Assembly: GCA_019686135.1 (NCBI GenBank)
Contig: JADGHL010000001.1
Coordinates: 62,001-126,000, forward strand
Direction of reading: 5' to 3'
Source: Myxococcaceae bacterium
GTDB lineage: Bacteria; Myxococcota; Myxococcia; Myxococcales; Myxococcaceae
Length of the DNA stretch: 64,000 nucleotides
Shown: piece after piece, positions 8,054 through 13,234 of the stretch
How the letters are laid out: each line of letters begins with the position of its first letter
How positions within the stretch are numbered: the first letter of the stretch is position 1
Program-made: the position numbers and the translations under genes
Notes under the pieces: model-generated
What the model saw: the letters and a program-made list of their open reading frames with translations, nothing else
Told to the model about the DNA's origin: nothing
The model's database searches: none

Positions 8054-9151
8054 CTACGGCAGGCGGGAGATGAACCCCTGACCGGTGAAGTCCTCCGACG
8101 AGAAGTACATCACGCCGTCCTTCACCACGAGGTCGCCGGGGCCGACCCCTTTCGGGCCCACGGCGTTCACGCCGCACCGGTCGATCCGCCTCAGGAATTC
8201 GGGCACGGCGGGGCCGCGGGTTGTGTCCTTGAAGTAGTGCGCGTCGCCCAGCCGGACGATCCGGAATGGATGCTGGAGCCCGCTCGCCAGCACCGTCGCG
8301 GGCCCTCCGGCAAGCGGCGCGCTGACGATGCGCCCATCCCCGCTGTCGCCCTCGCTCCACACCAGGGTGTCGCCATCGATGAGCAGCGCGTGCCCGTCCA
8401 CCGGCTCGTTCCGAACGCGCACGGCCTCGGACGACCCATCCGCCGGCACGCGGTAGATGCCCGGCGACGGACCCTGCGCGACCAGGAACCAGGCGTCCGC
8501 TCCGTGGAGCGTTACGCCACGCACCACCGAACCGGCCGGCGCGAGGAACAGGGTCTGGCTTCCGCTGCCGTCCAGCTTCGCGCGCTGAAGCGCCCGGAAG
8601 CCGGTGGCGATCAGCACGGCGTCGCCGTCCACCACCAGCGCGGACTCGCCGGAGACGGCCAGGGTGACCGCGGAGTCGATCCGCGTGCGCGTCTTCGAGC
8701 CGACGTCGACCCGCCACACGCCGCCCATGTCGAGCACGAACGGGACGCCGCTTTGTGGATCGACGGCGATCGCGTCCGGCGCGGTCAGGCCCTCCGCCAC
8801 GTCCTCCACCAGCCCGCCCGCGCGGCGGATCCGGATCACCCGGCCGACGTTGTTGCTGAAGTCGTTCGAGACGGTGGCGTAGACGAAGGTGTCGTCCACT
8901 GCCAGGCGCCGCACCGCCGGGAGGTTGGAGGCCAATGGCGTCCCCTCCTGTGGGGCGGGTGGACAGTCTTCGCCTCCGTCCGTGCCGGCGTCGAATCCGC
9001 CGTCGGTTGCGTCGTCCACACCGGCGTCGGTGGCGCCTCCGTCAAATGTGCCGCCGTCACCGGAGGAGGACGGGGGCGTGGCGCCGCAGCCCCACCCGGC
9101 GAGCGCGAGCACGGCGGCGATGATCAGGGTCGATCGAAGGGGAGTGCTCAC
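8054..9151 (-). CDS. lipoprotein with beta-propeller-like repeats
   Basis: A 365-residue exported protein. It begins at GTG, and the GTGA overlaps the stop of the preceding kinase gene by 4 nt, indicating translational coupling. A signal peptide with core LIIAAVLALAGWG leads to a cysteine, a non-ideal lipobox. A Gly/Asp/Thr-rich linker (residues about 25-65) is typical of myxobacterial lipoproteins. Six or so repeated beta-sheet blocks follow (LAVDDTFVYATV, VAVDPQ, ALLIDGDTLVWSEGD and similar), resembling an NHL/SMP-30-like propeller. It could be the periplasmic sensor or partner of the cytoplasmic kinase encoded upstream; no ligand is evident. Confidence 0.72.
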   Translation of the reverse strand: MSTPLRSTLIIAAVLALAGWGCGATPPSSSGDGGTFDGGATDAGVDDATDGGFDAGTDGGEDCPPAPQEGTPLASNLPAVRRLAVDDTFVYATVSNDFSNNVGRVIRIRRAGGLVEDVAEGLTAPDAIAVDPQSGVPFVLDMGGVWRVDVGSKTRTRIDSAVTLAVSGESALVVDGDAVLIATGFRALQRAKLDGSGSQTLFLAPAGSVVRGVTLHGADAWFLVAQGPSPGIYRVPADGSSEAVRVRNEPVDGHALLIDGDTLVWSEGDSGDGRIVSAPLAGGPATVLASGLQHPFRIVRLGDAHYFKDTTRGPAVPEFLRRIDRCGVNAVGPKGVGPGDLVVKDGVMYFSSEDFTGQGFISRLP

Positions 9152-10674
9152 GGCGAGACCTTCAACGCCCGCGACAGCTCCCGGCTCAGCGCCCTGGCGT
9201 CCGAGAGCAGCTTCGGCAGGCACGCGGCGCAGCCGGCCCGCAGCGCCTCGAGGGTGATTTCCATGCTCAGGTGTTCGACCAGCACCACGAAGGGCGCGCC
9301 CTTCGCCATCGCCTTTCCCAGCTCCACCGCCGCCGTCCCGCGCGCCGGGCCGAAGTCCCAGCTCACCACCACGGCAGCGGGTGGTTCGGTACCGCCCGGC
9401 ACGGGCTCGGTGAGGATCTGCGGATCCATGCCCAGCTGCTGGAGCGCGTCCGATACTGCCTTCGCGGTGAGCGGGTTGTCCTCGTAGATGTCGACGCGCT
9501 TGTTCTGCGCCACCGTCCGCCCGCCGCCGGGCGCCTGGAGGACCTCGCGGATCTTCTCGCGGACCTGGCGAATGTCGTCGAACGGCTTGAGCAGGTAGTC
9601 GACGACGCCCAGCTCCAGCGCCTGCTGCGCGGTGACCAGCGACGGATAGCCGGTCATGATCATCACGCGGGAGGACGGATCCAGCCGCCGCGCCTCCTGC
9701 GCGAGCTCGAGCCCAGAGAGCCCGGGCAGGTTCTTGTCGGTGACAATGAGATCGAAGCGCGGCCCGACGGCCCGGAGCTGTGCCAGCGCCTCCTCCGCGG
9801 TCTCCGCCTCCACGACCTCGCACTCCTTGCCCATCAGGTCGCGGAAGATGCTGCGGATGATCGACTCGTCGTCGACGATCAGCAGACGCTTGCGGCGGTT
9901 GACCGCGGGCGCGGCCTCGGGCGGGAAGCGCACCCGGAACACCGTCGCCGGCGGCGGGTTCTCGCCGGGGATGGCCGTGGGCGGCGCCAGCTCGATCGTC
10001 GCCCCGTGCTCTTCGGCGATCCTCCGGCACACCGCCAGGCCCAGCCCGCTGCCGCGCTGCCGCGAGGTGACGTAGGGCTGGAACAGGCGCTCCCGCAGCT
10101 CCGGGGCGATCCCCGGGCCCCAGTCCGCCACGAAGAGCACCGGCGCGCCGAGCTCCCTCCCCACCACCACCTTGATCCGCCCGCGCCCGCCCATCGCGTC
10201 CCGCGCGTTGTTGAGCAGGTTCAGCACCAGCTGTTCGATCAGCCGCGCGTTGCCGTGGATCTCCACGCCCGGCGGCGCGTCCACCTCCACCGAGCACTTC
10301 GCCGACTCGGGGTTGCGCAGGAACGTGGCGAGCGCCTCCTGCACGTGCTGCGGCAGGACCAGCCGCTCCTTCGGCGCGGGCCGGTTCGACGCGAGCCGCG
10401 TGAAGTCGGCGACGATCTGCTCCATCCGCTCCACCTGCGCGAGGATGAGGGGCAGGGTGGGCCGGTGCGGGCCGTCGTCCTCGCCCAGCATCTGCAGGTA
10501 GCCCTTGATCCCCAGGAGCGGCTGACGGAGCTCGTGCAGCACCTCGGCGGCGAGCTGCATCGGGTTCGATCCGGGGCCTTGGGACAGCGTCTCCGCAGCG
10601 GCGCGCGCCGCCTTCAGATCGCCAGTCTCGACGGCGCGGAGCAACGCGTCGAGAGGGTTGGTCCGCTCGGTCAT
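9148..10674 (-). CDS. cytoplasmic hybrid histidine kinase with receiver and degenerate second receiver
   Basis: About 508 residues and no membrane segments. The dimerisation/phospho-acceptor helix carries H47 in HELRQPL. The ATPase domain (about 130-250) has NLLNNARDA, DWGPGIAP and GSGLGLAV. A receiver (about 265-385) has VDDES, phospho-acceptor D in LIVTDKNLPG, MTGYPS and LLKPFDD. A third C-terminal block (about 395-500) resembles another receiver but lacks a clear acceptor context. Start choice is uncertain because no ribosome-binding site is obvious; ATG 10674 was taken, with ATG 10689 possible. It is the first gene of the four-gene minus cluster. Confidence 0.82.
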   Translation of the reverse strand: MTERTNPLDALLRAVETGDLKAARAAAETLSQGPGSNPMQLAAEVLHELRQPLLGIKGYLQMLGEDDGPHRPTLPLILAQVERMEQIVADFTRLASNRPAPKERLVLPQHVQEALATFLRNPESAKCSVEVDAPPGVEIHGNARLIEQLVLNLLNNARDAMGGRGRIKVVVGRELGAPVLFVADWGPGIAPELRERLFQPYVTSRQRGSGLGLAVCRRIAEEHGATIELAPPTAIPGENPPPATVFRVRFPPEAAPAVNRRKRLLIVDDESIIRSIFRDLMGKECEVVEAETAEEALAQLRAVGPRFDLIVTDKNLPGLSGLELAQEARRLDPSSRVMIMTGYPSLVTAQQALELGVVDYLLKPFDDIRQVREKIREVLQAPGGGRTVAQNKRVDIYEDNPLTAKAVSDALQQLGMDPQILTEPVPGGTEPPAAVVVSWDFGPARGTAAVELGKAMAKGAPFVVLVEHLSMEITLEALRAGCAACLPKLLSDARALSRELSRALKVSP

Positions 10675-10808
10675 CGGAATGAACAGCATGGCGAACACTC
10701 GGGCCCGCCGCAAACCGGGGGTCCGGGCTTTTCGGGTTGACCGCCCGCGGCGCGCCCCAACATCCTCCCCGCGTTCCGGGCCCTTCGAACCCCCTCCGCG
10801 AGGTCACC

Positions 10809-11210
10809 ATGCCCCAGACGCCCCCCTTCCACGCGCTCACGCCTGACCGGAAGCTCTCCGACACCGAGCTGGCCCGCGCCATCCGCCTCGACATGGAGGC
10901 GGAGCTGGACGCGATCAACCTCTACGCGTCGCACCTCGACGCCACCGACAACGAGGAGGCGAAGGCCATCATCCGGCACGTGATGAACGAGGAGAAGGAG
11001 CACGCCGCGCTCTTCTACCGGCTGCTCCGCCGGCTCGACGGCACCCAGGAGGAGCACGAGTCGGAGGTGGAGGAGAAGTACCGGCTGATCGTCTCCGGGG
11101 CCTCGGACGAAGAGGTGGAGGCCGTCGGAAAGAAGGGCGGCGCGCAGAAGACGGCCAGCGAGTCGTCGGCCGTGAAGTCGCTGACCGTGGGGCCGCTCCG
11201 GGGGCGCTGA
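10809..11210 (+). CDS. encapsulated ferritin-like protein (encapsulin cargo)
   Basis: A 133-residue protein. A two-helix ferritin-like core (about residues 20-80) carries the metal-site residues of encapsulated ferritin: Glu in MEAELDAINLY, then NEEKEHAAL with the E-x-x-H motif. Such proteins form decamers with ferroxidase sites and oxidise iron for storage inside encapsulin shells. The C-terminus ends SLTVGPLRGR, closely matching the LTVGSLRR-type cargo-loading peptide of Myxococcus encapsulins, after a flexible Lys/Ala/Ser linker. GAGGT precedes the ATG. No encapsulin shell gene is adjacent, so the cargo is unlinked from its shell, as I recall for encC in Myxococcus xanthus. Confidence 0.85.
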   Translation: MPQTPPFHALTPDRKLSDTELARAIRLDMEAELDAINLYASHLDATDNEEAKAIIRHVMNEEKEHAALFYRLLRRLDGTQEEHESEVEEKYRLIVSGASDEEVEAVGKKGGAQKTASESSAVKSLTVGPLRGR

Positions 11211-11286: not shown

Positions 11287-11787
11287 ATGCGTCGAATCCT
11301 TCTTTCTGGGCTGATGTGCGGAGCGTTGGCGCTGGCTGCCTGCGGTGGCGGCGACAACGGCGGACCGGATGGCGGCACCAACGAGAACAACCCGAACGCC
11401 TGTGGCGATGACGTCCAGTCGGTGACCGCGCAGGAGCTGTTTGATTCGGTGATCAACGGCACCGGCGCCTGCACCTCGTGCCACTACGCCGGCGCGGGGA
11501 CCGCCACCAACGGCGACCTGGTGATGGACTCGGTGGAGGCGCTCAAGGCGACCACCGGCGCGACCACCGCCTACGCGATCACCGGCTCCACGCTGAAGGT
11601 CGTGGACCCGAACCACTCCGAGAACAGCACGATGTTCCTCAAGGTCGCGGGCGGGTCCACCGTCACGCCGCCGGTGAAGGGGCCGAAGGGCGAGTCGGTC
11701 GGCGCGCAGATGCCGCAGGGCCTCCCGCCGCTGTCCGCGGAGGACCTCAAGATGGTGAAGGACTGGATCTGCTCCGGCGCGAAGTAG
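11287..11787 (+). CDS. lipoprotein with CxxCH heme-c-like motif
   Basis: A 166-residue exported lipoprotein: signal peptide, lipobox LALAAC, and a Gly/Asp/Asn-rich linker. A domain with CTSCH (about residue 60), fitting covalent heme-c attachment, follows, with a downstream MPQG methionine as possible sixth ligand and a terminal Cys near the end. The pattern resembles small c-type cytochrome domains common in myxobacterial lipoproteins. It could take part in periplasmic electron transfer. It sits 76 bp after the ferritin-like gene on the same strand; a functional link through iron redox chemistry is possible but unproven. Confidence 0.65.
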   Translation: MRRILLSGLMCGALALAACGGGDNGGPDGGTNENNPNACGDDVQSVTAQELFDSVINGTGACTSCHYAGAGTATNGDLVMDSVEALKATTGATTAYAITGSTLKVVDPNHSENSTMFLKVAGGSTVTPPVKGPKGESVGAQMPQGLPPLSAEDLKMVKDWICSGAK

Positions 11788-11803: not shown

Positions 11804-13186
11804 TCAACCCCGTGGTCCCGTCGGCACCGAGTGGCGCGCGGCGGGCGTGGCCTCCAGCCCGCTGGAGGCCATGTAGATCACGTTTCGCGAGCCCTTCTTG
11901 CCGCGGTACATGGCGCGGTCCGCGAAGTCGAGCAACGAGGCCTTGTCCTGTGCGTGCTCGGGGTAGCTGGCCACGCCGATGCAGGTCGTGACTTGCAGCC
12001 CGTAGCCCTCGCGCGAGAGGAACTGGTGCGTCTCCATGGTGCGCCGGATGCGCTCGGCCACCTTGAGCGCTCCGCCCGAATCGGTGGCGCGTAGGAGAAT
12101 CACGTACTCGTCGCCGCCGTAGCGGACCACCACGTCGTTGTCGCGGACGCAGCCCTTGATGATCCGCGCGACCTCCACCAGCAGCTTCGAGCCCACGAGG
12201 TGCCCGTGGGTGTCGTTGACGCTCTTGAAGTAGTCGAGGTCGAGGAACAGCAGGCTGAACGTCCCCGAGGTCTGCTTCGCGCTCTTGAGCTCGCGGTCCA
12301 GCACCAGGTCGAGGTAGCGGACATTGAACAGGTGGGTGAGATCGTCCAGGTAGGCCAGGTCCTCCACTTCGGCGAACCGGCCCAGGTTCCTCAACGCGAG
12401 GCCCAGGTGCCGCGCGAGGTATTGCGCGGACTGCTCCGCCTCCTCCGGCGGGGCTTGGCGGAAGAGGACGGCCACGTGCCCGAAGATCTGATCGCCGTCC
12501 GCCGCCGGCACCAGCCAGGCCGCGGTGAAGCCGTCTGGCGCGGCGATCTTCTGCAGCGTCGTCCCCGCGCTCTCGACGTGCGGCCTGAGCGCTGCCTCCA
12601 CGGCCTCGCGATCGCCCTCGCCGCTGCCGAAGACGCCCTCCAGCCGGAACGCGTCGCCCCGGCCCGGGCGCAGGTACAAGAGCACCGTCGCCGCGCCGGT
12701 CGTTTGCGCGAACGCGTGCGACGCGGTCTGGACCAGCTTCTCCCGATCCAGTGTCGTGGCGATCCTCTGCGCCGTCTCGAGGAGCGCCACGTGCTGCCGC
12801 AGCTTCTCGTTCTCGCGCAGAAGCTGCCGCGCCGTGAGCGCGCGCGAGACGGCGTGCTGGAGCGCCTCGGGGGAGACCGGCTTCACCAGGTACTCGGAGG
12901 CGCCGCCCTTGATCGCTCGCACCGCGGGATCGACCTTGTCCAGCGCGGTGATCACCACCACCTCGGTGGACGGGAAGTTGCTCTTCACCAGCTCGAGCAC
13001 CTCCATCCCGTCACCGTCCGACAGCAACAGGTCGGTGACCACCGCGTCGAAGCGCTCCCGGGCAAGGGCGTCCTTCGCCTCCGCGACCGTGCCCACCGCG
13101 GTGACCTCGTGCCCGCCCGCGGCGAGGTAGTCGCCGTACAGCGCCCGGGCCATCTTCTCGTCGTCGATGAGGAGGATCCGCGCCAT
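11804..13186 (-). CDS. response regulator with GAF-like and GGDEF (diguanylate cyclase) domains
   Basis: A 460-residue cytoplasmic protein. The receiver (1-120) has DDE at 8-10, phospho-acceptor D52 in VVTDLLLS and the conserved KP. A short coiled segment leads into a GAF-like domain (about 140-265). The GGDEF domain (about 285-440) has active-site sequence GGDEY, so catalytic residues for making c-di-GMP from two GTP are kept, and an RDND inhibitory I-site lies five residues upstream, so product inhibition is expected. The tail is short and low complexity. The start is ATG 13186 (a GTG precedes it directly). It is convergent with the heme lipoprotein gene and divergent from the CheW-like gene. 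Confidence 0.9.
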   Translation of the reverse strand: MARILLIDDEKMARALYGDYLAAGGHEVTAVGTVAEAKDALARERFDAVVTDLLLSDGDGMEVLELVKSNFPSTEVVVITALDKVDPAVRAIKGGASEYLVKPVSPEALQHAVSRALTARQLLRENEKLRQHVALLETAQRIATTLDREKLVQTASHAFAQTTGAATVLLYLRPGRGDAFRLEGVFGSGEGDREAVEAALRPHVESAGTTLQKIAAPDGFTAAWLVPAADGDQIFGHVAVLFRQAPPEEAEQSAQYLARHLGLALRNLGRFAEVEDLAYLDDLTHLFNVRYLDLVLDRELKSAKQTSGTFSLLFLDLDYFKSVNDTHGHLVGSKLLVEVARIIKGCVRDNDVVVRYGGDEYVILLRATDSGGALKVAERIRRTMETHQFLSREGYGLQVTTCIGVASYPEHAQDKASLLDFADRAMYRGKKGSRNVIYMASSGLEATPAARHSVPTGPRG

Positions 13187-13234
13187 CACCTGGACCGATT
13201 AGCAGGCACTTGCCGGGGGCCGCTACAGCGATTC

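Follow-up and report, generated by a model that had tools for sequence, protein, structure and literature searches.

A predicted EncC-type encapsulin cargo ferritin of a Myxococcaceae bacterium, encoded apart from its shell and carrying proline in its targeting peptide

The DNA analysed here (the window) is a stretch of 64,000 nucleotides on contig C245 of a Myxococcaceae genome assembly of 245 contigs and 5.5 Mb. It contains a short open reading frame for a ferritin-like protein, situated between two genes on the opposite strand that were named by sequence inspection. The features of the locus, in window coordinates, are:

9148-10713, minus strand: divergent histidine kinase / response regulator gene
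10809-11210, plus strand: encC, encapsulated ferritin-like cargo protein of 133 aa (7s8t match; NF058679 and PF22277 above cut-off)
10860-11054, plus strand: EncFtn-like core, residues 18-82, with E32/Y39/E62/H65 (PF22277 match and published positions)
11181-11207, plus strand: C-terminal targeting peptide LTVGPLRGR, with the Pro129 codon CCG at 11193-11195
11804-13189, minus strand: convergent response regulator-GGDEF gene

The encC frame opens with an ATG at 10809 and closes with a TGA at 11208-11210. Among solved structures the best match to its product is EncC of Myxococcus xanthus (PDB 7s8t; E 1.4e-48, residues 1-131), in an alignment that begins at the same Met encoded by the ATG at 10809; the second best, EncB (7s5c), lies far below it at E 6.6e-9. 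Both the Pfam EncFtn-like model PF22277 (39 bits, cut-off 27) and the NCBIfam EncB_fam model NF058679 (102.7 bits, cut-off 90) recognise the protein, and together with 7s8t they place it in the EncFtn-like family; TIGR04535 falls below its cut-off (71.7 bits against 125). The EncC match is not a chance one, given these two scores and the occurrence of strong EncC matches, defined as E 4e-35 or better, in 63 of 145 genomes of the order. Judged by its sequence, the frame at 10809-11210 is a genuine gene and an orthologue of M. xanthus EncC.

The ferroxidase residues reported for EncFtn of Rhodospirillum rubrum, E32, Y39, E62 and H65 (PMC5012862), are all present at exactly the published numbers. 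They are near-invariant across the 63 EncC proteins of the order-wide alignment, in which they are numbered 42 higher owing to an upstream in-frame extension. The initial annotation had described an encapsulin cargo ferritin with an E-x-x-H core and a C-terminal LTVGPLRGR, and this description holds: the core is E62-x-x-H65, the protein ends in KSLTVGPLRGR, and the end-to-end match to 7s8t, the ferroxidase residues and the tail all bear out the cargo assignment. Pfam Rubrerythrin also matches the protein (40.2 bits), as it might if this were a free-standing rubrerythrin or ferritin-like protein with no tie to encapsulins and a tail acquired by chance. The EncC match, however, spans the whole protein, the targeting tail is retained throughout the EncC family, and a shell is encoded in the same genome; the orthology evidence refutes the free-standing reading, to which we assign next to no probability.

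The protein resembles M. xanthus EncC (MXAN_4464, PDB 7s8t) in its end-to-end homology, start Met, ferroxidase residues and C-terminal peptide frame, and both are encoded away from the shell operon. It differs in being three residues longer (133 aa against the 130 given in Table 1 of PMC11202242) and in its tail, which reads LTVGPLRGR where the M. xanthus type has LTVGSLRR. R. rubrum EncFtn (PDB 5da5) belongs to the same family and shares the ferroxidase site, but is only weakly similar (E 4.1e-7) and has, according to Table 2 of PMC11202242, a tail of the LGIGSLK type, unlike the one found here.

The synteny of the encC site is conserved. Homologues of the kinase and GGDEF genes flank encC in all 29 short loci compared (L053-L081), and GroEL and ValRS genes lie farther out in three of the four long loci (L004, L006 and L007); in the remaining one, L005, no flanking homologue was found. 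Between encC and the GGDEF gene the window also has a gene (11287-11787, plus strand) whose lipoprotein-like product contains a CxxCH motif and for which no homologue was detected at E 1e-8 in the 33 related encC loci, 29 short and four long.

The initial annotation had noted, correctly, that the window has no shell gene, and had proposed a genome-wide search for encapsulin, in which the absence of any encapsulin would count against it. A search with Pfam Linocin_M18 found a single shell in the whole genome, on contig C23 (15492-16280; E 1.5e-67). The shell protein scores 287.2 bits with NF041155, the model for family 1 encapsulins (cut-off 100), and matches M. xanthus EncA (7s4q) at E 2.4e-165, and the genome thus encodes a cognate family 1 shell. 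The gene immediately upstream of the shell gene encodes an EncB-like protein with the C-terminus FTVGSLKRRP, whose score is under the curated NCBIfam cut-off (132.8 against 210). A candidate EncD-like cargo of 113 aa, ending in FTVGPLRGQKG, is encoded on contig C205; it matches EncD (8vjn) at E 5e-10 and is likewise under the NCBIfam EncD cut-off (79.7 bits against 120). With EncA, EncB-like, EncC and EncD-like proteins all found, counterparts of the four components of the M. xanthus iron-storage encapsulin are present, and of their genes only encA and encB are adjacent. The degenerate pattern T-V-G-x-L-(K/R-like) occurs at 44 places in the genome, all of which were read for further cargoes. 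Ten are at most 22 residues from an in-frame stop, and three of these lie in recognisable cargo genes (EncB, EncC and EncD-like); at another of the ten, L032, no listed surrounding open reading frame ends in the motif. No second tail of this kind occurs among the other window frames of at least 40 codons.

The initial annotation had presented the gene as a cargo without a neighbouring shell gene. This is true of the window, but it is not anomalous, since the shell is encoded elsewhere in the same genome and the same arrangement is seen in relatives and in M. xanthus, whose genes are encA MXAN_3556, encB MXAN_3557, encC MXAN_4464 and encD MXAN_2410 (PMC12693112, PMC5959871). A shell was found in 61 of the 63 genomes with strong EncC and in 15 of the 82 without a strong EncC match; the test of this co-occurrence ignores shared ancestry, and its p-value is descriptive only. 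The two EncC genomes in which no shell was found are assemblies of about 960 contigs (G060) and about 900 contigs, the latter 87% complete (G124). Where EncC and shell genes share a contig (17 genomes), they are separated by at least 612,774 bases. In these myxobacteria encC as a rule lies far from the shell gene, and the lack of such a gene in its neighbourhood should therefore not be taken as the mark of an orphan cargo.

In M. xanthus it is established that EncC decamers oxidise Fe(II) and are tethered within a 32-nm shell together with EncB and with EncD, a ferric reductase (PMC12693112, PMC11202242). By analogy with that system, and given the close orthology, the window gene is almost certainly encC, whose product would form an EncFtn-type decamer with ferroxidase activity, held with EncB and EncD in the EncA shell for iron storage. 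Fe(II) would be oxidised at a di-iron centre formed between two EncC subunits, the C-terminal peptide would hold the decamer inside the shell alongside the other two cargoes, and the loaded shell would store the iron. As encA and encB, and also encD, are on other contigs, EncC would act as a cargo in trans. The protein would then be an iron oxidiser of a known myxobacterial kind, packed into a hollow protein shell.

The targeting peptide departs from the usual type at one position. The consensus is given as L(F)X1V(I)X2X3L(I), with GS or GT at X2X3 in most cases (PMC11202242); LTVGPL satisfies it in general, with GP at X2X3. At the fifth position the same review has S(N), and no Pro, in its EncC consensus (Table 2); its entry for EncB is S(T). 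In 60 readable EncC tails we count Ser 45 times, Asn 12 times and Thr, Gly and Pro once each, the Pro being that of the window protein; three of the 63 proteins have no readable motif (two are cut at contig ends, and the EncC relative of G124 has none), and three weaker relatives, L144-L146, are omitted. The 61 readable EncD tails have Ser (55), Pro (3), Asn (2) and Gly (1), with one of 62 unreadable and one of the 63 matching genomes (G029) excluded for a weak match with a stop. EncB tails, counted only at loci with a retrieved shell region (24 of 28 with a match), have Ser (16), Thr (6) and Pro (2).

The Pro-tailed EncD proteins belong to the window's genome and to both genomes of genus g5 (G055 and G056), and the Pro-tailed EncB proteins to the same two g5 genomes. 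The g5 tails (L092, L093, L149 and L150) are LTVGPLRR in EncB and LTVGPLKR in EncD, with Asn in EncC. The Ser-to-Pro difference pointed out in the initial annotation is thus real and is not unique to this protein; relative to the M. xanthus system, EncC and EncD, two of this genome's three cargoes, have Pro for Ser. Since Pro occurs in three different cargo families, at least three changes would be implied. The Pro129 codon, CCG, is one base from a Ser codon (TCG), and a sequencing error is unlikely because Pro occurs in two genes of one genome.

In a study that paired docking with reporter loading in Escherichia coli, the Ser of the targeting peptide is hydrogen-bonded within the binding site in the docking models, and an S-to-A change there lowered loading (PMC7925596). 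As Ser-to-Ala at the same position had this effect, Pro could weaken binding, and its rarity in EncC (one readable tail in 60) would fit a tail that binds poorly or not at all and leaves EncC partly or wholly outside the shell. We regard this as unlikely. The remaining motif positions are all retained (L-T-V-G-x-L-R), Asn, Thr and Gly are likewise found at the fifth position, and Pro recurs in EncD of the same genome and, within genus g5, in both EncB and EncD; the S-to-A mutant, moreover, was the mildest of the three described in PMC7925596. A literature search, with most subscription journals lying outside it, returned nothing on TVGPL encapsulin peptides.

We retain the reading of EncC as a cargo held in the shell. 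The first 42 residues of that shell show only three differences from M. xanthus EncA. No change that might compensate for Pro emerged from 28 aligned shells: apart from a single ragged C-terminal column, 291, with Gln in both, no position has a residue that the window's genome and g5 have in common and the remaining 25 lack. It is conceivable, though we think it quite improbable, that Ser-to-Pro is a recurrent evolutionary way of setting the cargo ratio within one shell, having been used for EncC and EncD in this lineage and for EncB and EncD in g5 while the remaining cargoes keep Ser or Asn and the N-terminal helix of the shell is almost unchanged. The recurrent replacements offer natural targeting-peptide variants for a comparison of loading strength.

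Two further EncC relatives have unusual tails. That of G124 (L143, contig C350) has no recognisable targeting peptide, and searches of this genome found no shell and no EncD, possibly because the encapsulin system has decayed, although the assembly is fragmented. In G085, which has a shell and no EncD match, the EncC tail (L141, contig C53) extends beyond the motif (LTVGSGRAVQGRGSSVE).
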